A stretch of DNA of 31,423 nt, taken from a virus. Below are positions 8,301 through 23,976 of this stretch, piece by piece (within the stretch, counting starts at the first letter, position 1; each line of letters opens with the position of its first letter). The stretch is taken from IMG/VR virus record IMGVR_UViG_3300025869_000055, positions 1 through 31,423 of that record. The stretch is one strand, 5' to 3'. The position numbers and the translations under genes are program-made. Below the pieces are notes generated by a model, which worked only from the letters and a program-made list of their open reading frames with translations, searched no databases and was not told the origin of the DNA.

Positions 8301-8602
8301 CTATTTTCTAAAAGACCATCTAAGTCTTTAAGTTTTGCATCTAACTCAGCTTGACTCTGAACATCAACATAATCACCAACATATTCATAGTGTCGAGGTT
8401 CGAACATATCTATATCTAATTGAAAGTTTTCATCTCTTACATGGTTAAACTTATAAGAATTACTAATATGATTTACAATCGGACTACCAGCACTCTTTAT
8501 ACTAGCTCCTATTGTTTCACCCCATGTTGGTGTCTTAGGCATATTATCAATAGATGAAGTTTGATTACTCCATACTCTATTATTATTAAAACCGTTTAAC
8601 AT
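5297..8602 (-). CDS. Internal virion protein, gp16-like (DNA ejection)
   Basis: The 1101-residue product sits where T7 gp16 sits, just before the fiber, and is probably the largest ejection protein that leaves the capsid to help DNA cross the envelope. Sequence support: the start overlaps the gp15-like gene in a TAATG junction; there are long helical stretches, several amphipathic or hydrophobic segments (near residues 120-150, 170-185, 970-990, 1030-1050) and a C-terminus ending PFLRLWFLKDQMKEL, of a type I associate with marine podovirus gp16 homologues. I see no N-terminal lytic transglycosylase domain, which T7 gp16 has. Peptidoglycan opening must be done elsewhere or is not needed. The gene is very AT-rich. 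Function is assigned mainly from position, size and composition. Confidence 0.72.
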   Translation of the reverse strand: MLNGFNNNRVWSNQTSSIDNMPKTPTWGETIGASIKSAGSPIVNHISNSYKFNHVRDENFQLDIDMFEPRHYEYVGDYVDVQSQAELDAKLKDLDGLLENRETLYKAGVAKAMISEFANPINWLGLPYGIGEARLMYAIGKVATASAFHQGGLELLRAPFDPTSVPHETPINIGAAFVFGGFLQGGLRVPSAIKARNHNILMDDYNAMIDGLNGLTPDDIDKMPSVKDRKYGLQSTKELNNLKNRSNSKQEVFDLNREISVRRMEYWKSKDPNDIYKADSFFVKAMPTPFRSFLRSKLTTTKGYMHRLASDHGLVTVANMMGLTHGPSIYTQQKLRVGPVVKNMKQFYRLWGEEQGGAMEMAGYRLSNAAAKASKLNPLQKNKMTFDDWITEVNTARLADDPAYSMSPKQKEAADLLDNFFKDAEVELRDLGLIGSAKSVKTSIKKLTNGIDSTKNKLKVATKPALRKHFEKQIIRLEERLKEQELLLKESYTGSVMPKGESKYFARYWNQGKIKANRALFTNKILQHYLANPKEGAPMDVKSVTLRAEDTVKKILEEGEYDPLNPDTLFLGLGSSKHTKGRILDIPNKDVLDFIELNPEKVMLEYTNRIAPLIEWEKGFGGRTLDDILDEIDEDGISNNMSVRQINKARMEFQIMYNRVVGRTIEDPSRWDSKTAYAIKEASALSYLGSAGFATISEPATMFMNHEVGTIFKSLFNILKRPQNVQQALRETKEVYAEALEIEIGNAQVRFTDEMRGESKITKTWEKGKDAFYTLNGLAPLTALLKNWESLNRQHSIIDYSIKLVNGNSNKFETTWLLRNGIDKEKATEIANAPWDKTDNGLYLANISKWKTKKGKSNKPSKFVQEDTITSFKAAMSDGILNTILMGTPADKPILADGIIMLPMHIAGKMGLKEHPKYRGYARVESGLLNMPLQFYSYLMAAATKIQGSLAQGQNKNKAITIAAFMGLGYLQYQMRVPDYVREKDNIPTALMRSFDYAGLGGVYSDIFYTSLHTGMELTGKNFTGGMVAAKYGAEQNYADALAGILGAGPDIALQYSRAAGNIVQGNYGEGTEDFLRILPFLRLWFLKDQMKELGRTFGNM

Positions 8603-11600
8603 TAATTACTTAATCCTAATTCTACTCGATGTACTTTATTTACTAACTCATAAAATTTACTTAATTCTTTATATTTTGAAGTGCTTGCATTAAATTTTTT
8701 CATATCATCAAACAATGTTTTTTTAAGATTAGTAAGTTCGTTTCCTGTTATTTGTTCTCTTTTTTGATTTAAAAGAATAGGTTTTCCAGAACTATTTCCT
8801 TCTTTAGAAACAAATGAATACCCTCGTTGATTATGGTCTAAGCCAGCATACATTAAAGTAATGTGTTTCTTACTTTTAAAATCTATGCTTTCTATTATGT
8901 TGCTTTCAACAACTGTGCCTTTTACAATATTTCCTATAGGTGAAGGTATTGCATTTATTTCAGCTTGTTGCTTTTTTAAAAGTGCTTTAGCATTTTTTAA
9001 AGAAAGTGAGCTTTCTATAATTTGTTGAGTTATTGTTTCTTGGCTTTCTGCAAGTTCTTTTTCTGCTCTTTTTCTTAATAGTTCGTATCTGCCTTCTTGA
9101 CCACTCTTACGGTATTCATCTCTTAATTCGTCAGTATTAAAATATGGCATCATTAATTCATTATTTTGTTTACCCAGCACAGGATTCAACGAACCATCTT
9201 CACTAAGTACATGAGGCCATAAATTTAAACTACCTTCACTAGAAAATTCATCAGGAATTAAAACTACTTTTTGATATTTACCCCCAGATTCTTCTGCTTC
9301 TTTTCTAAGTTTTTGTCGTTCATCAGCTGGTAAATCCATAATTTCGTTAAGTTCTTTTACACTTTTACCTACAAATATTCTATCTAATAAAGTATAACCA
9401 AAATCATTTAATTGTTTTTCCATTTGGCTTTCAGCCCAAGTAGCTGTGTCATTATCTCCAAATACATTATGTAAAGTAAGATTTGTTTTGTTTGTACCTG
9501 TTCTTAAATCAAGAATAATATCATCTTCTACAAAAACTTTATCATACATATTAGTTAAATTTTCACTAATTGTTTTTTCATTTATATTGCTGTAGATTTG
9601 ATAATTAACATATGCTTCAAATTGTTTATATAAACCTGTGCCAAGCATTAAATCTGTTTCTGGCAAAACTGTTCTTATATATTTAGCAGTAGAAGATATA
9701 ATATCATTTCTGTCATTTCTTGTAGTTTTGTCATCTATATTAGCAATTGCAAAAAAATTAGCACGTTTTTCACTTTTATCTTTATTAGTTAAACTACCTA
9801 AACTTTGTATAATTTCATTACGTTTATCACTTCCAAGCATTAATGATAAATCACTTACAGTCTCAAAAAAAGCTTCTTGGTCTTCAGTAAAAACATTGTA
9901 GGCTTTTAATTTATTATACCTTGCGCCCTTGTCTGTTCTTAAATTACTGTATTGATTATGAAGTTGAAATATTGAATTTATAATTTCATTATCTACAAGC
10001 GCACCAGACATCATAAGATTAACTTGTTTAGTTAACTCAGTAGAACCAGTTTGTGATATTATATTTTCCCAAGTATTAGAGTTACGCCAATTAAAATTGT
10101 CATCAACTATATTTCTATGACTTTTATCTGCCTCGCCTGATAATAATGTAAGTCTATTTATATTTGCATCAGCTATTGCTTTTGCTTGTGTTTCTTTTTT
10201 AGCTTGTCCTTTTGCTAATTCTCCAAAAACAGTAGATATAGCTTTAACATTTTCGCCCATAGTTCTTGATAATATATCATCAAGTCTATCTTTAAGATGA
10301 TTTATAGGAGCAGACATTGGCCCATCAGGAGAAACAATTGATGTACCAAATTCATATTTTTTTAATGAACTTGTGTTTTTACCGCCACTTAAAATATAAG
10401 CATCTGAATCGTATAATATTTCAGAAGAAATATTAGGAATGTCTGACATCATGGCGTTAACATCTCTTATAATAAATTCTTTATTTAATTTTTTTTGAAA
10501 ATCTATAAGTTTATCTACACCAAGTGGCTTACCTTGATTAATAAAATATTCAACTTTTTCATTAAATTCATCTAAATAATTATTATAATCTTCCTGTGTA
10601 TAACTTATATCTCCATTTCTTATTTTAGTAATTTCATTACTTACAGTTAGTGAAAAATCAAATTTTTGTTTATTTATTAAATTTTCTTTTAAAGCTTTTT
10701 GTCTTGCGGCTTGAGCATCTTTAAACTTACCACTGTAACCTCGTTGAACATATGTTTTTAAAGAACCAAGTTTGTCAAAAGGAACTAATTTATGAATTGC
10801 TTCAATAATTACTTTGCTTTCTGGGGAAAGAAAGTTTCCGTCTTCGTCTTGTACATCAGTATTATGACGACCTACTGCTGTAGCAATTTGGTCATTTGTA
10901 TCAAGACCAAGAGAGATAGCATAAGTTAATAAAATTTCTGCTTCATTTCCTATTTCTTTATTTAAACCATCAAAATTAATTTCTGGATTTTCCCTCATGT
11001 ATTTTTCTAAATTGTCTTTATAAGAATTAAGTTCTGTAATAAAATACTCTAATCCAGCTTCTATTCTTTCACTTTTGTTTTGCACTCCAAGTAAATCAAT
11101 TTCTTCTTTAGTTTGCTCACTAAAAACTAATTCTTCTAAAATATTATTAATACTAATATCTTTTGCATTTAATTTTTCTTGTACATCTTTAAATATTTCT
11201 GCTTGTTCTTCTTGAATTCTAAATTGATATATAGATGATTGACTTCTAACTTGATTTGCTAATTCCTCACTTAAATACTCAGGAGGCAAACCAACATCAT
11301 ATTCTTTAGTACCAAAAATTATTCTATTTCTTGCAACATTATTAACATATTTATTAAATTCTTTTGCAGTTTTAAAAGATTGAGATTGTAAATCAGATTG
11401 AAGAACCGCTGACCAATAAGATTTTTCTGCTGCATTTTTTAAAGCATTTATTTCTGGGCCAGAATATGAGTTTGAATCTGCTGTTACATTTAAATCTATT
11501 TTTTCTAATATTTTGTTATATGCTATTTCTCTGTCTTCATCATTTAATTCTGAAAAACTTTTTTGAATTTCATTAACTTCAGTTATAAACAATTGTTTAT

Positions 11601-12129
11601 TTTTTGCTTTTAGTTCTCGTCTTCGAGTTTGAGTAAGATTCATTTTAGTAGAAGCTAGATAAAAAGTTCCAGCTTCTTCTACCATACCTTTATACATACC
11701 TTCTGGAGCATTATTAACCATACCAGATAAGTATTGAGAAAACTTTTCTTCATATGCTTGAGGAGAAATATTTTCTATTAATGAAAATTCTTTAGATTTT
11801 AATTTAATTTCATCAGATATTGATTTTTCAAATCTACTATCAATTATTCTTTTGTAAGCAGCTCTAGCATCAGAGTTCATATTGTATAACTCTAAAGCTT
11901 CTAGCTTACCTGTAGTTGGATTAATTGTTCTAACTTTATCTATATCTTCACTTAAAGCTAACTCTTGTGCTTCATTAAGAGATTCTTTTTTTAAAGTATT
12001 AAAAGCTGTTGATGCTACGTTTTTTGCGTTAGCTCTAATTGTTTCCCAAAGCTCAGACTCACCTGTATTAATCCTAGCAACACCTATTGGTGCGTTAGTA
12101 ACTGTTCTTTTTTGTCTAAGTACTGGCAT
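8602..12129 (-). CDS. Internal virion protein, gp15-like
   Basis: The 1175-residue product lies between the gp14-like and gp16-like genes, the place of T7 gp15 (747 residues), so it is considerably longer than T7's. It is almost entirely charged and helical in pattern, rich in Lys, Glu, Asn and Ile, with no signal peptide or clear membrane segment. That fits an inner-core ejection protein lining the translocation tube. The N-terminus MPVLRQKRTVTNAPIG resembles the start of other marine podovirus core proteins as I remember them. A TAGGAAT ribosome binding site precedes ATG 12129, and the stop overlaps the next start (TAATG). No enzymatic motif is recognised. Assigned by gene order, size and composition. 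Confidence 0.72.
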   Translation of the reverse strand: MPVLRQKRTVTNAPIGVARINTGESELWETIRANAKNVASTAFNTLKKESLNEAQELALSEDIDKVRTINPTTGKLEALELYNMNSDARAAYKRIIDSRFEKSISDEIKLKSKEFSLIENISPQAYEEKFSQYLSGMVNNAPEGMYKGMVEEAGTFYLASTKMNLTQTRRRELKAKNKQLFITEVNEIQKSFSELNDEDREIAYNKILEKIDLNVTADSNSYSGPEINALKNAAEKSYWSAVLQSDLQSQSFKTAKEFNKYVNNVARNRIIFGTKEYDVGLPPEYLSEELANQVRSQSSIYQFRIQEEQAEIFKDVQEKLNAKDISINNILEELVFSEQTKEEIDLLGVQNKSERIEAGLEYFITELNSYKDNLEKYMRENPEINFDGLNKEIGNEAEILLTYAISLGLDTNDQIATAVGRHNTDVQDEDGNFLSPESKVIIEAIHKLVPFDKLGSLKTYVQRGYSGKFKDAQAARQKALKENLINKQKFDFSLTVSNEITKIRNGDISYTQEDYNNYLDEFNEKVEYFINQGKPLGVDKLIDFQKKLNKEFIIRDVNAMMSDIPNISSEILYDSDAYILSGGKNTSSLKKYEFGTSIVSPDGPMSAPINHLKDRLDDILSRTMGENVKAISTVFGELAKGQAKKETQAKAIADANINRLTLLSGEADKSHRNIVDDNFNWRNSNTWENIISQTGSTELTKQVNLMMSGALVDNEIINSIFQLHNQYSNLRTDKGARYNKLKAYNVFTEDQEAFFETVSDLSLMLGSDKRNEIIQSLGSLTNKDKSEKRANFFAIANIDDKTTRNDRNDIISSTAKYIRTVLPETDLMLGTGLYKQFEAYVNYQIYSNINEKTISENLTNMYDKVFVEDDIILDLRTGTNKTNLTLHNVFGDNDTATWAESQMEKQLNDFGYTLLDRIFVGKSVKELNEIMDLPADERQKLRKEAEESGGKYQKVVLIPDEFSSEGSLNLWPHVLSEDGSLNPVLGKQNNELMMPYFNTDELRDEYRKSGQEGRYELLRKRAEKELAESQETITQQIIESSLSLKNAKALLKKQQAEINAIPSPIGNIVKGTVVESNIIESIDFKSKKHITLMYAGLDHNQRGYSFVSKEGNSSGKPILLNQKREQITGNELTNLKKTLFDDMKKFNASTSKYKELSKFYELVNKVHRVELGLSN

Positions 12130-12138
12130 TAAAAATTC

Positions 12139-12597
12139 CTAATCTTTATCTGATTTTTTTCTTGAGCCTCTGTAAGAAGATATACCCCCCATTATATCTC
12201 CAAAGGCATTAACAGTAGCAGACCTTAAAGCATTTTTTGAACCAGCTCTTAAACTTGCCGCTTCTATTTCTGTTTTTCTCATACTAATCAGACTTTGATT
12301 AGTAGCAACTCTTATGTCTTCTGCTACTATATCTTTTTGATTATCAAAAAAAGCTTGCATACTGGGGTCATCTCTTCTCCCTAGATTTGCAAACATATTT
12401 TCATTAGCTGACATATCATTTTGATATTCATTCATTCTAATTATAGCAGATTGTTTAGTCTGTGTGTCCATTAAACTGCGGTCAATTAATGCAAGCTTTG
12501 CACTTTGCAACGCTTGTCCAGCTCTAACTCTTCCGCTTTGAATAGAGCTAAAAGCTGATAAACCTGTACTAGCGATTGCTAACCATGGAATTGCCAT
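12139..12597 (-). CDS. Internal virion protein, gp14-like
   Basis: This 152-residue protein follows tail tubular protein B, exactly where T7 gp14 lies. The N-terminus MAIPWLAIASTGLSAFSSIQSG is a hydrophobic, glycine/serine-containing helix. The rest is helical with conserved-looking Asn/Gln/Met-rich repeats and a basic tail (SYRGSRKKSDKD). By analogy with gp14 it may form the pore in the outer membrane during DNA ejection. The start is coupled to the preceding gene by TAATG at 12595-12599, and nine bases separate its end from the gp15-like gene. Confidence 0.78.
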   Translation of the reverse strand: MAIPWLAIASTGLSAFSSIQSGRVRAGQALQSAKLALIDRSLMDTQTKQSAIIRMNEYQNDMSANENMFANLGRRDDPSMQAFFDNQKDIVAEDIRVATNQSLISMRKTEIEAASLRAGSKNALRSATVNAFGDIMGGISSYRGSRKKSDKD

Positions 12598-15179
12598 TAT
12601 ATAATTACCTCTGCTATTAATCCATTAACCTGTATAGGTAGAGGTTCTGCTTGAGTCACTTCTATTTGTGGGTCATCACTATATCCAAGTAATCTAAACT
12701 CTCTTTTACCAGTAACAGGCGTTCTTATCTTTGACATGTCATCAGTAACTTGTCTTATTGTTAATGCTGTATTGTTTACACTTACTGCTAGTGTATTATT
12801 TAAATCTAAGAAAACACTTCCTATTGCTCGAGGCAATCCTGTAACTGGGCCATTGTCAGCTGTTAAATCAATAGGATTAGTTTTTAAAGTAACATCAAAC
12901 TTATATCCAATCTCTGCTGTTGTTATAGCTTCAACAGCAGATACATCAGCTTCACCACCAGATACTACTACATCACCATAGTAATTTGTATTGCTAACTA
13001 CACTAACAACTGCACCATTAGCAAACTCATCACTCACAGTAAAAACACCTGTAGTGCTAGTATAAGTCTTAGCTACATCTAAATTAACTGTGTCTTTAAA
13101 CTCACATAAAATATATTCCTGAGTACCAGCACCAGTATCAATAACAATATTACAAAACACTTTGTCATCAATAACACATATAGATTTAAAAGAACCTCTA
13201 GTCGTAAACTCAACCCACCCAGCTCGTTTTTCTGTTCTGTTAGAATTAAACACAGCTACAGTGCCATCGTCATTTACCATAAATATATAAGACTCATTTC
13301 TATTTATCGCACCTCTAAGAACAGACTGCTCAATAGGATTCTTAATAAGATGCGATGAAATAGAAGAAATAGAAGATGCAGTATACGAACCTTCTGCGTC
13401 TGAATAAATGTATTCTCTAACAATAGAACCATTCTTTTGTACAAATACAGTTGCACCATCTAATGACTCAGGACGAATCCATGTACTACCATAAGGTGTT
13501 TGTTTTCTTAACTGTGCATTAGTTGGAGTTATTGCATTACCTAGATATGTAGGCACAAATAATTCGTTACTAGCTGTAAATATTTGCAAATCTCTATTAG
13601 ACACTAAATGTCTTATTTCGTTTACTTCACCAGTAGCTGCAATTAATTGGATTGAATCAGAATCATTTGCTGTACCTACATCAAAGTTCCAGTAAGCATT
13701 TGTTTTGCTCATCCATATAGCATCAGGCTGTGAGCTTGTTCCACCAAATACTAATCTATTTTCATGGAAAGTAACGGCTGTAGGAAATCCTCTTAAAGAA
13801 GAGAAAGTTTGCTCTTGCCAATCTAATGTAGCTGCACCAGTAGTAATTTTAATAGAAGCACCACCACCATCTTCACTAGCATTAGCTGTACCATTAGCTG
13901 TAAATGTGTATGTATTCTCATCTATAATAGCTAGAATAGCTTCTGAATTGTTTAAGTTAGATGTTGAAATTCCACCAACAGTTGCAGCATCAGAGATAAC
14001 AATAGTTTCACCACCTTTAAAACCATGAGCTATATGAGTAACTTCTACTACTGCACTGCCAGATGCTGTCCTAAATGCGTTATTAATTAATGTTTGCTGT
14101 AATGCTTTTAATATTGTTCCTGTAGCCCTAGTCCCATTAACAACTGCTGTTATAAGTATTTCTGAATTACCATACTTTAACCGTGTACCAACATGACCTG
14201 ATACAAAATAAGATGCACTAGTTGTTAAAGGGACACCTGTCCCAGATGTAGCCTCAGCTGCTAGAGTTACGCCAGTATCTTGGAAAGGATAATATGGTTG
14301 AAATGTGTCAGTAACAGTAGACCCAGACGTTAATGTATCAAATACTTTTACTTCTAATTGAAAAGCAGTTGCACTAGTCCTTACTAATAAACGTGGTTTA
14401 AAAAGTGTATGACATATCCACATAGTGTTTCCGCTTTGAGCAAATGAATATTCATTTATATATTCATCATCAAATGGAATTGCATTACTATCTACGTCAG
14501 CCGTTAATGTAGATACTAAACTTGTAACACCTGTTGATTGCACTACTCTAAATACTCTTAACTTAGCATTTTCTATAGATACAATATATTGGAAATCATC
14601 TGAGAATATAAACGGAACTAACCTACTTTGCATATCAGCACCGCCAGTAAAATTTGTTACAGCTAATCGTGTGCTGTCTGTTGTTGTTACTGTCAAATTA
14701 GTGCCAGATTGAGGAAAATCTCTCTTAACAGTTACTACTGCTGCTGCTGGATTAGCTACTGTAAATCCTGATATTGCATTAATAGCAGTAAAAATAAGGT
14801 CTGCCGTTACATTATTAGATGTATTAGGTTTATAATAATGAGTATTGCCAGACGCGGCAGTAGGAGTACCAGCACCAACCGCTTCAGACTCTAGTGTAAT
14901 TTCTGTTCCATCATGTGTAAAAAACTTTATTTGACTACCAACAGCAATGTTAGCATAGTCAGCTACTGTAATTGTAAATGATGTCTGCTCTACAGTAATA
15001 TCGTACTTGTATATTTTTTCAGTGCCAGCACGTTTAATTACACCCCCTTCACTTCTAAGAAGAAAGTTTTCTACACGTTGAGCAGAAGCTGAGTACACAG
15101 CGGAGTCTGTTCTTGATATTGCTGACGGACTTATTTCACCAAACTGAAAATTATTTACTGGTACTCGAACTTTTCGCAT
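12597..15179 (-). CDS. Tail tubular protein B (gp12-like nozzle)
   Basis: The product has 860 residues, similar to T7 gp12 (about 794). It builds the lower tail tube (nozzle) and contacts the fibers. The N-terminus VNNFQFGEISPSAISRTD followed by RVENFLLRSEGGVIKRAGT is characteristic of this family (gene 12 type). The central part is beta-rich with many short Thr/Val/Gly stretches; FHENRLVFGGTSSQPDAIWMSKT near the middle is another family signature. It is coupled to tail tubular protein A by a TAATG overlap at 15177-15181 and to the gp14-like gene in the same way. Confident assignment. Confidence 0.93.
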   Translation of the reverse strand: MRKVRVPVNNFQFGEISPSAISRTDSAVYSASAQRVENFLLRSEGGVIKRAGTEKIYKYDITVEQTSFTITVADYANIAVGSQIKFFTHDGTEITLESEAVGAGTPTAASGNTHYYKPNTSNNVTADLIFTAINAISGFTVANPAAAVVTVKRDFPQSGTNLTVTTTDSTRLAVTNFTGGADMQSRLVPFIFSDDFQYIVSIENAKLRVFRVVQSTGVTSLVSTLTADVDSNAIPFDDEYINEYSFAQSGNTMWICHTLFKPRLLVRTSATAFQLEVKVFDTLTSGSTVTDTFQPYYPFQDTGVTLAAEATSGTGVPLTTSASYFVSGHVGTRLKYGNSEILITAVVNGTRATGTILKALQQTLINNAFRTASGSAVVEVTHIAHGFKGGETIVISDAATVGGISTSNLNNSEAILAIIDENTYTFTANGTANASEDGGGASIKITTGAATLDWQEQTFSSLRGFPTAVTFHENRLVFGGTSSQPDAIWMSKTNAYWNFDVGTANDSDSIQLIAATGEVNEIRHLVSNRDLQIFTASNELFVPTYLGNAITPTNAQLRKQTPYGSTWIRPESLDGATVFVQKNGSIVREYIYSDAEGSYTASSISSISSHLIKNPIEQSVLRGAINRNESYIFMVNDDGTVAVFNSNRTEKRAGWVEFTTRGSFKSICVIDDKVFCNIVIDTGAGTQEYILCEFKDTVNLDVAKTYTSTTGVFTVSDEFANGAVVSVVSNTNYYGDVVVSGGEADVSAVEAITTAEIGYKFDVTLKTNPIDLTADNGPVTGLPRAIGSVFLDLNNTLAVSVNNTALTIRQVTDDMSKIRTPVTGKREFRLLGYSDDPQIEVTQAEPLPIQVNGLIAEVII

Positions 15180-22451: not shown

Positions 22452-22838
22452 TTACGACAGGTCTATTGAGACACGAATGTCGCCAGCTACCTGCACTTGA
22501 CTCCTATCTATTGGCTTGAACCCAGCTCTATCTAGCAAATCCTTGCTTGCTTCCAGCTGAACATACTCACTCTTCGCACCCTTACTCAGTCCTGCTAACT
22601 GGTGTACAGCCGCAGGAGCAAGTCTACTAAACTGTTCTGTCACTACTGTCATCAAGTGCTGTTGCACGTGGGCAGTCTTCAATGCCTTTTGTGCGGTGAC
22701 TCTACCGCTGTCACCTTCTGCGTATCCTGCGGTCTTTGCAGCTTGCGTGACATTCCCTCCATTTGCTACATATGCATCAACTAAAGCTATCTGTCTTCTG
22801 GTTAGTTTTCTATTACTTACAGGTATCATCAGGAACAA
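22452..22838 (-). CDS. Terminase small subunit
   Basis: The product is about 125-128 residues and resembles the Terminase_2 family. It starts with SNRKLTRRQIALVDAYVANGG, then NVTQAAKTAGYAEGDSG as a helix-turn-helix that would bind the packaging site, and a helical oligomerisation part (VQQHLMTVVTEQFSRLAPAAVHQLAGLS). Two starts are possible: TTG 22838, six bases after AGGAG, or ATG 22829, about nine bases after a GAGGGG run. I give the longer form but the ATG is equally likely. It heads the whole minus-strand operon and has a copy of the late element upstream. Confidence 0.88.
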   Translation of the reverse strand: MFLMIPVSNRKLTRRQIALVDAYVANGGNVTQAAKTAGYAEGDSGRVTAQKALKTAHVQQHLMTVVTEQFSRLAPAAVHQLAGLSKGAKSEYVQLEASKDLLDRAGFKPIDRSQVQVAGDIRVSIDLS

Positions 22839-22892
22839 CCCCCTCTCCTTACCTCTCCCCCTTCACAGATAGCTTGTTACAAATGTACGTGT

Positions 22893-22906
22893 CAACTCAC
22901 AATTAC
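22893..22906 (-). promoter_or_regulatory. Conserved late element, terminase copy
   Basis: On the minus strand this is GTAATTGTGAGTTG and it continues as ACA, so a consensus -35 hexamer TTGACA is formed at its end; CTATCT lies 17 bases on but is a poor -10. It ends 54 bases before the TTG start of the small terminase. It is identical to the copy at 20357-20370. Confidence 0.55.
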
Positions 22907-23006: not shown

Positions 23007-23033
23007 AAAATCAGGTTGGACAACCCTGATTTT
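23007..23033. repeat. Palindrome 1: 11-12 bp hairpin, terminator-like on either strand
   Basis: AAAATCAGGTTG pairs with CAACCCTGATTTT with one bulged C and a very short loop. The arms end in A4/T4, so either strand could give a weak hairpin plus U-tract. It could insulate the two divergent operons. Confidence 0.65.
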
Positions 23034-23050
23034 GCCTGTAAAGTACAGGC
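23034..23050. repeat. Palindrome 2: 7-bp arms
   Basis: GCCTGTA-AAG-TACAGGC is a perfect inverted repeat starting directly after palindrome 1. The short spacer suits a dimeric protein operator or a small hairpin. Confidence 0.65.
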
Positions 23051-23054
23051 CGCA

Positions 23055-23074
23055 TGACACACAGTCGTGTGTCA
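23055..23074. repeat. Palindrome 3: 8-bp arms, shares 12-mer with the initiator-gene repeats
   Basis: TGACACAC-AGTC-GTGTGTCA is a perfect inverted repeat, four bases after palindrome 2. Its first 12 bases, TGACACACAGTC, occur again twice inside the replication gene at 27217-27228 and 27286-27297, so the same protein might bind all three. Confidence 0.65.
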
Positions 23075-23291
23075 CCTGTATGGCAGTGGATTTTTGAATC
23101 TAGCGATGCCAAAAATAACGTACTCGTGCGCCCGCGCTCGGACGATTTAATCTATTGTATACTACACTACACAAAAGAGATTCTACTCGCATCTGATAAA
23201 GGTGTCCTGATGCACAGACACTGCGTCAATAACCATGTCACTATTGCCGAAGAAGTTTAATTACTATCAACTTTGTCACCATATGTTCGAA

Positions 23292-23434
23292 GGTCCATTT
23301 ATAACCACCTAAGAATACAGGCATATCTGAATGGACTATCCAAACTGGTCACACAAGAATAATAGACGTATCCATTCACGACCTTGTGCGGATGCTATTC
23401 CACCTTTGGTGGGCATCCTTCTATTGAATGGACC
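23292..23434 (+). ncRNA. Putative structured, possibly switching, leader RNA of the early operon
   Basis: Fold A: GGTCCATT (23292-23299) pairs with AATGGACC (23427-23434), enclosing two arms. Arm one is TGAATGGA (23328-23335) with TCCATTCA (23371-23378). Arm two is GGATGC (23390-23395) with GCATCC (23413-23418), topped by CCACC-TTT-GGTGG. Fold B: GTCCATT (23293-23299) pairs with AATGGAC (23330-23336), and TCCATTCA (23371-23378) pairs with TGAATGGA (23425-23432). The two are mutually exclusive apart from the shared GGATGC hairpin. It lies about 130 bases before the first early ATG. No known riboswitch class is recognised. The alternating 8-mers could instead be protein-binding half-sites in DNA. 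Confidence 0.4.
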
Positions 23435-23562
23435 CTCGTCGATTTTTCTTGTGCGATGGTTGTGGCTGGTGTTGCTTTGCTTGGATGGCTCAGCCAGTTT
23501 GGTTATTCCTGTCAGATGAAGCATGCCTGTATTCTCAGGTGATTCTAAATGGAGAACATATA

Positions 23563-23976
23563 ATGAAAAAGTTAATAGCAAATAAACTGGCAATAGCAAC
23601 ATGGTCATCAACTGGGTCTGAGCAACAGGACGAATACCTTTATCAGAAACGAGCAGAATCTTCCTGCTACGCAACATACAATAGATTAACTTATTTAAAG
23701 AATAAGATAATAGAACAGATTGATGCAGGACAAGTAACCTATGCAGAAATGACTGACACTATCATTCAGATAGTACAAGCAGAACATGAAGCAGACCAAT
23801 CTGTTCACGAACAACTAACTGGTGAGACTTGGACACCAGCTCGAAAGGGTTCTAGAGCTAAGACAACTCATCTATCAGTCGATGAGATACAGGCCCTACG
23901 AGACAAGTACTCAACACCTAATGAAGACGGTACTTCAACAGCTAGACCTCAACTAGCTGGCAAGATATCTAAGTAA
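23563..23976 (+). CDS. First early gene, hypothetical protein
   Basis: The product has 137 residues and unknown function. I start it at ATG 23563 because GGAG lies eight bases upstream; the open frame reaches further up into the structured leader without another ribosome binding site. The product begins MKKLIANKLAIATWSST, is charged and helical in the middle (residues 25-85), has a basic stretch ARKGSRAKTTH, and a C-terminal segment HLSVDEIQALRDKYST of the kind seen in short helix-turn-helix or Arm-like tails. As the first early gene it may act on host takeover. A strong 12-bp hairpin follows the stop codon. Confidence 0.75.
   Translation: MKKLIANKLAIATWSSTGSEQQDEYLYQKRAESSCYATYNRLTYLKNKIIEQIDAGQVTYAEMTDTIIQIVQAEHEADQSVHEQLTGETWTPARKGSRAKTTHLSVDEIQALRDKYSTPNEDGTSTARPQLAGKISK

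Follow-up and report, generated by a model that had tools for sequence, protein, structure and literature searches.

Between the early and late genes of a podovirus-like virus record (IMGVR_UViG_3300025869_000055; the window is the whole 31,423-nt stretch analysed) lies a noncoding leader in which a preliminary description had proposed a two-state RNA switch at 23292–23434, and the locus raises the question of which structure is formed there, in which molecule, and to what end. Late genes occupy the minus strand, running from the terminase small subunit at 22838 leftwards through the capsid and tail genes, and the replication and recombination genes lie on the plus strand. By its portal protein, the window is closest among cultured phages to the Pelagibacter phage EXVC031P Hodr (64.5%), whose record (L015, OQ414635.1) bears locus tags of EXVC032PBaldr, probably a labelling error of the deposit. 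Among the late virion genes, a 1175-aa protein (8602–12129) has no PHROG or Pfam match. The features of the early/late divergence are as follows.

22452–22838, minus strand: terminase small subunit, the first of the late genes and divergent from early gene 1
22867–22895, minus strand: candidate late promoter, a consensus match (TTGACA 22895–22890, 17 nt, CTATCT 22872–22867), then a G-rich leader
23007–23074, no strand assigned: three short hairpins (23007–23033, 23034–23050, 23055–23074) between the late promoter and the giant hairpin, possibly terminators or insulators
23147–23348, minus strand: giant hairpin, left arm (which would be the 3′ arm of a minus-strand RNA), noncoding, an inverted and imperfect repeat of the early leader and the first ~42 codons of early gene 1
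23158–23163, plus strand: TATACT within the box (C)ATACTACAA, a candidate early −10 element or protein site
23349–23456, minus strand: apical part, with an inner stem (23349–23368/23437–23456) around the tip
23371–23434, no strand assigned: clade-specific apical insertion with TCCATTCA/TGAATGGA and the GGATGC/GCATCC hairpin, the core of the feature first described
23494–23689, minus strand: right arm (5′ arm of a minus-strand RNA), with the Shine-Dalgarno sequence, the ATG at 23563 and the first 127 nt of early gene 1
23563–23976, plus strand: early gene 1, 137 aa, a predicted long helical hairpin

Promoter motifs are consensus readings and candidates only as to activity. Most relatives carry TTGACA, some 17 nt further on a TATG-like hexamer, and a G-rich leader, all before the terminase gene; this leader (22840–22866 in the window) is unusual and strongly conserved, reading GGGGGGAGAGAGGGAGAGGGGGG in most relatives. 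Between hairpin and terminase gene, several relatives (L129, L142, L148, L132, L165 and others) contain iteron-like TTGTAGTA repeats and palindromic TGACGyNACGTCA sites, which from their sequence may bind a regulator or a replication protein. At about 22370, L005, L010, L011, L013 and L014 have several hundred to ~1100 nt inserted, which the window, L006 and L007 do not have.

The hairpin around the four 8-mers

The four related 8-mers from which the switch was constructed lie where they had been reported (GGTCCATT at 23292, TGAATGGA at 23328 and 23425, TCCATTCA at 23371), in an element about 130 nt upstream of the early ATG at 23563, and no other copies occur between 22.8 and 24.2 kb. When 23288–23438 is folded alone the outer stem and two arms do form (−45.9 kcal/mol, z = −4.06, pair probabilities 0.99–1.0), and the GGATGC/GCATCC hairpin, as had been claimed, stays stable in every context (0.99–1.0). 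These 8-mers nevertheless lie at the tip of an imperfect hairpin of ~543 nt (23147–23689), an inverted repeat which, like its overlap with the early coding sequence, went unmentioned in the preliminary description. Within the full hairpin, on either strand, the 23292/23427 outer stem and the 23328/23371 arm have a predicted probability of 0.00, and the 23371/23425 pairing, which is part of the tip, one of 0.88–0.98. The true partner of GGTCCATT is 23544–23553, about 250 nt downstream. Thus, the mutually exclusive folds are lost because the isolated cut-out leaves out the real pairing partners. Neither is the switch conserved, since it was built on 23371–23434, a 64-nt insertion that the window shares only with its closest relatives (L005–L008) and replaced by ~9 nt in L009–L014. 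The earlier remark that no known riboswitch fits agrees with a search of Rfam covariance models, none of which exceeded the gathering threshold in the window or in 20 relatives, a relaxed threshold yielding only chance-level matches (E ≥ 0.8). The original switch reading is therefore unlikely, and a two-state switch or set of protein half-sites at 23292–23434 is extremely improbable, for all that the 8-mers exist and their fold is stable in isolation. What does hold is the expectation of a structured, conserved nucleic-acid element at this site, in the form of the giant hairpin.

The extent of this hairpin is apparent from self-comparison of the window, in which successive inverted-repeat blocks run outward to 23147 and 23689. 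When the two sides are locally aligned the score is 101, and no other centre in the window exceeds 49. In a scan for hairpins, this region scores 103 (minus strand), and the rest of the window no more than 18. Folded as RNA, 23140–23700 reaches −222 kcal/mol on the plus strand (z −13.6) and −275 kcal/mol on the minus strand (z −21). An artefact of metagenome assembly or amplification was ruled out by the ~24% difference between left and right arms, and by the presence of the hairpin in independent contigs and in a complete cultured genome.

Conservation of the hairpin and selection on its pairing

Relatives were fetched with three queries, namely early protein 1, the alignment of its family and the small subunit of the terminase; about 590 exist by the terminase link, 80 of which were fetched, and dereplication of the early-gene loci at 95% left 54. 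A hairpin occupies the same place in 50 of these 54 (37 strong, 13 weaker but in register), is absent in L126, L130 and L152, and the remaining locus, L171, has just 68 nt of upstream sequence. Searching from the terminase side, 52 loci exceed the cut-off used. The span of the hairpin varies from about 240 to 890 nt, and its right arm enters the early coding sequence by 24–310 nt, depending on clade, so that in all 50 hairpin loci the start codon of early gene 1 lies inside the paired right arm. In long-armed clades (L113–L118) the left arm extends over the first codons of the terminase gene and over the late promoter motif; this motif is inside the left arm in L098 as well, and outside it in the window's clade. 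Cultured Hodr carries a hairpin of 261 Watson-Crick pairs (11935–12257 with 12307–12643) reaching into both divergent genes and covering terminase codons, the start included. Only a weak AT-rich inverted repeat was seen in HTVC034P, and no comparable inverted repeat in MEP301. The loops of L142, L132, L127, L151, L160, L162, L178 and others share an apical module, approximately CTTGCAGTTnGCAAGGgCGAAGArCGnAGyGTcCCTTGCGAACTG on the minus strand, on arms that differ between clades.

The early gene 1 protein accompanies the giant hairpin in relatives, and belongs to a family for which no PHROG or Pfam match was convincing. It is modelled as two long antiparallel helices with short flanking ones (mean pLDDT 90.6), a predicted fold for which no significant structural match was found; a likeness to Rop and UvsY was weak (E > 0.1) and was discarded as evidence. 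Against GenBank phages, neither this protein nor the DNA of the hairpin region showed any similarity.

Selection on the pairing was assessed in clade alignments of 6–10 distinct sequences each, with structures derived from the same sequences, so that the following controls are not probabilities: pairing holds in 98.9% of cells for the window's clade, whose 8 double-changed pairs compare with 2.2 after shuffling (0/500) and a maximum of 2 in slid controls, whereas clade A6 shows 21 double-changed cells against 8.2 shuffled (0/500), its 7 double-changed pairs against 5.1 being not unusual. Compensatory changes, which the preliminary description had named as its own test, thus exceed both shuffled and slid controls, a result compatible with RNA and with single-stranded DNA alike. 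A strand-neutral count over four clades found 32 double changes that preserve a Watson-Crick pair and 26 that do not. A measure independent of any fold is provided by silent third positions of early gene 1, whose divergence inside versus beyond the hairpin is 0.041/0.158, 0.088/0.160, 0.140/0.330 and 0.065/0.217, that is, 2–4 times lower inside in all four clades, although in two of the four the early protein is also more conserved there.

These data bear upon a reading without function, in which an inverted duplication of the early gene start has had its arms kept alike by template switching or gene conversion. Template switching at quasi-palindromes yields matched changes in both arms, the left arm does repeat the early gene start, imperfectly and in inverted orientation, and clade differences resemble linked blocks in both arms. 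Yet dozens of phages have the element at the same site and the window has none elsewhere, conversion should give perfect pairs and not biased wobbles, and the silent sites of the coding arm are constrained; this reading is judged distinctly unlikely. The giant hairpin at the early/late divergence is real and conserved, its pairing is kept by selection, and it very probably has some function.

Strand and molecule

The strand on which the pairing matters may be sought in the mismatches that the hairpin tolerates. Opposite the coding sequence, transition mismatches would be G·U in a minus-strand RNA in 169 cases and in a plus-strand RNA in 40, the direction being the same in 15 of 15 informative groups, and since these mismatches are spread over codon positions 1–3 it is the noncoding left arm that is drifting. 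Contrary to the assignment of the element to the early-leader strand, the bias points to the opposite strand, though weakly in the leader itself (58:42 toward minus, p = 0.13); in Hodr there is no strand bias (mismatches 9:10, folds −243/−243). Flanking composition on the minus strand is 52.7% G+T, and a neutral G·U ratio of about 1.6:1 was estimated from base composition. A strand bias of mutation does not by itself account for the asymmetry of the wobbles, since the observed 4.2:1 exceeds this estimate, but transversions in the left arm lean toward the same strand, so that the bias is partly compositional and its weight as evidence is lowered. Segregating single changes favour minus by 89:30, and in the coding arm alone by 24:8, transversions there being balanced. 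Consensus folds of four clades (minus/plus) are −246/−192, −213/−157, −311/−238 and −196/−152, and the minus fold is the more stable in 19 of 19 representatives. In the loops, C-GNA-G mini-hairpins occur on the minus strand in 21 of 48 loci, a count that overstates independent cases as the loci are interrelated, and on the plus strand in one. Taken together, there is moderate evidence that the molecule is the minus strand. RNA and single-stranded DNA are not separable by the bias, as G·T also beats A·C in single-stranded DNA.

The element might be a quasi-palindrome acting at the DNA level, single-stranded or cruciform, for example as a replication origin, a packaging site or a hairpin promoter of the N4 kind. 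It adjoins the terminase gene at the minimum of cumulative GC skew (which is confounded by gene direction), the iteron-like repeats are nearby, and the strands are nearly symmetric in the leader part and in Hodr. Some loops, moreover, have the C-GNA-G mini-hairpins, which presumably resemble early promoters of N4. On the other hand, arms of 150–320 bp far exceed the DNA hairpin sites known to us, the coding part has its strand bias, and an N4-type polymerase was not recognised in the window. An N4-type promoter was specifically considered for the C-GNA-G loops and set aside, no N4-like virion RNA polymerase having been found among the proteins scanned, with the provisos that the 1175-aa virion protein has no match and that the window may be incomplete. 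A DNA-level role appears rather unlikely.

A second possibility retains the plus strand. Here an early mRNA would start at the ATACTACAA box, and its leader would pair with the Shine-Dalgarno sequence, start and first codons of gene 1, blocking translation until RNase III, a protein or a shorter transcript opens the hairpin; in longer-armed clades, a minus-strand RNA would similarly hide the terminase start, but not in transcripts that begin at the late promoter within the arm, as for T4 gene e. Many clades have this box at the outer end of the left arm or close to it, a position which suggests that early transcripts may start there and include the whole hairpin, the plus-strand fold is also extreme in its z-score, and the longer hairpins span the late promoter and first terminase codons (or, in Hodr, terminase codons). 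In T4, the start sites of e, soc, 49 and I-TevI are sequestered likewise by hairpins in long transcripts (PMC3014915). The mismatches opposite the coding sequence speak against it, being A·C rather than G·U in a plus-strand RNA by 4 to 1, the reverse of what selection for plus-strand pairing should leave, and the ATACTACAA box has no clear −35. Such a lock on the early leader is possible though unlikely.

The reading preferred here, to which we assign a probability of roughly 0.38, is a putative minus-strand RNA in the form of a hairpin, with the start of early gene 1 as its antisense target. Transcription would begin inside early gene 1 and proceed leftwards, producing a 5′ arm that is the perfect antisense of the Shine-Dalgarno sequence, start codon and first codons of that gene (24–310 nt of coding sequence by clade), on which the 3′ arm, the imperfect copy, would fold back to form a rod of up to ~320 bp whose loop is complementary to the early leader. 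The RNA may then act on early gene 1, for instance as a shut-off once late transcription starts, and would probably be cleaved by RNase III; its ends, its effect on the target and this processing are all putative. Several points count against this minus-strand RNA: a very stable stem would hinder antisense binding, the ATACTACAA box stands at the outer left end in many clades, and a search by consensus upstream of the right (5′) arm revealed no convincing minus-strand promoter. A further step, speculative and rather doubtful, would make the element an early-to-late timer, a 240–890 nt late-strand antisense hairpin RNA acting together with the helical-hairpin protein of the early gene in a large group of marine podoviruses, and as such a new class of control element.

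Relation to known systems

Selection usually acts against long inverted repeats, which tend to be unstable. Yet in dozens of divergent marine podoviruses one is retained over the beginning of the first early gene, and constrained codons are the price. Were the element an RNA, it would rank with the longest simple hairpin RNAs of phages known so far, and would offer a handle on early/late timing in small pelagic podoviruses without a recognised RNA polymerase. As cultured Hodr (host Pelagibacter HTCC1062) carries the hairpin, the question is directly testable. Antisense and start-sequestering hairpins are known kinds of element, but we know of none comparable in size, coding overlap and breadth, and no description of such an element was found in the literature searched, the coverage of which was incomplete.

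The closest counterparts of a minus-strand RNA, if it exists, are the hairpin-shaped antisense RNAs IS10 RNA-OUT, CopA of plasmid R1 and RNA I of ColE1, in which an antisense hairpin likewise lies over the target start, as the present one does in all 50 hairpin loci, with a loop complementary to the target. Those RNAs measure ~70–110 nt, whereas the present element spans ~240–890 nt, half of which imperfectly repeats the coding start of its target.

Other structured elements of phages share some of these traits. The early promoters of N4 are small DNA hairpins that control early transcription (PMC4496689), far smaller than the present hairpin and dependent on a virion polymerase of ~3,500 residues, none being recognised here. 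The cabRNA of staphylococcal phages is a structured RNA from the terminase region, but it lies within terS/terL and is a known CBASS trigger (PMC10686824), whereas the present element is upstream of terS and under structural selection. GOLLD and ROOL are large structured RNAs in phage or prophage settings (PMC12286853), unlike which a single long rod is formed here instead of a multi-branched fold, with no Rfam match at the gathering threshold. The arrangement at T4 gene e, in which the start is hidden in long transcripts and an internal promoter gives rise to free ones (PMC3014915), suits the long-armed clades in particular: the Shine-Dalgarno sequence and AUG of early gene 1 lie in the stem, as do the terminase start codons in those clades and in Hodr. 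The T4 hairpins are local to the start site, however, whereas the present hairpin extends hundreds of nucleotides into the coding sequence of one or both divergent genes.
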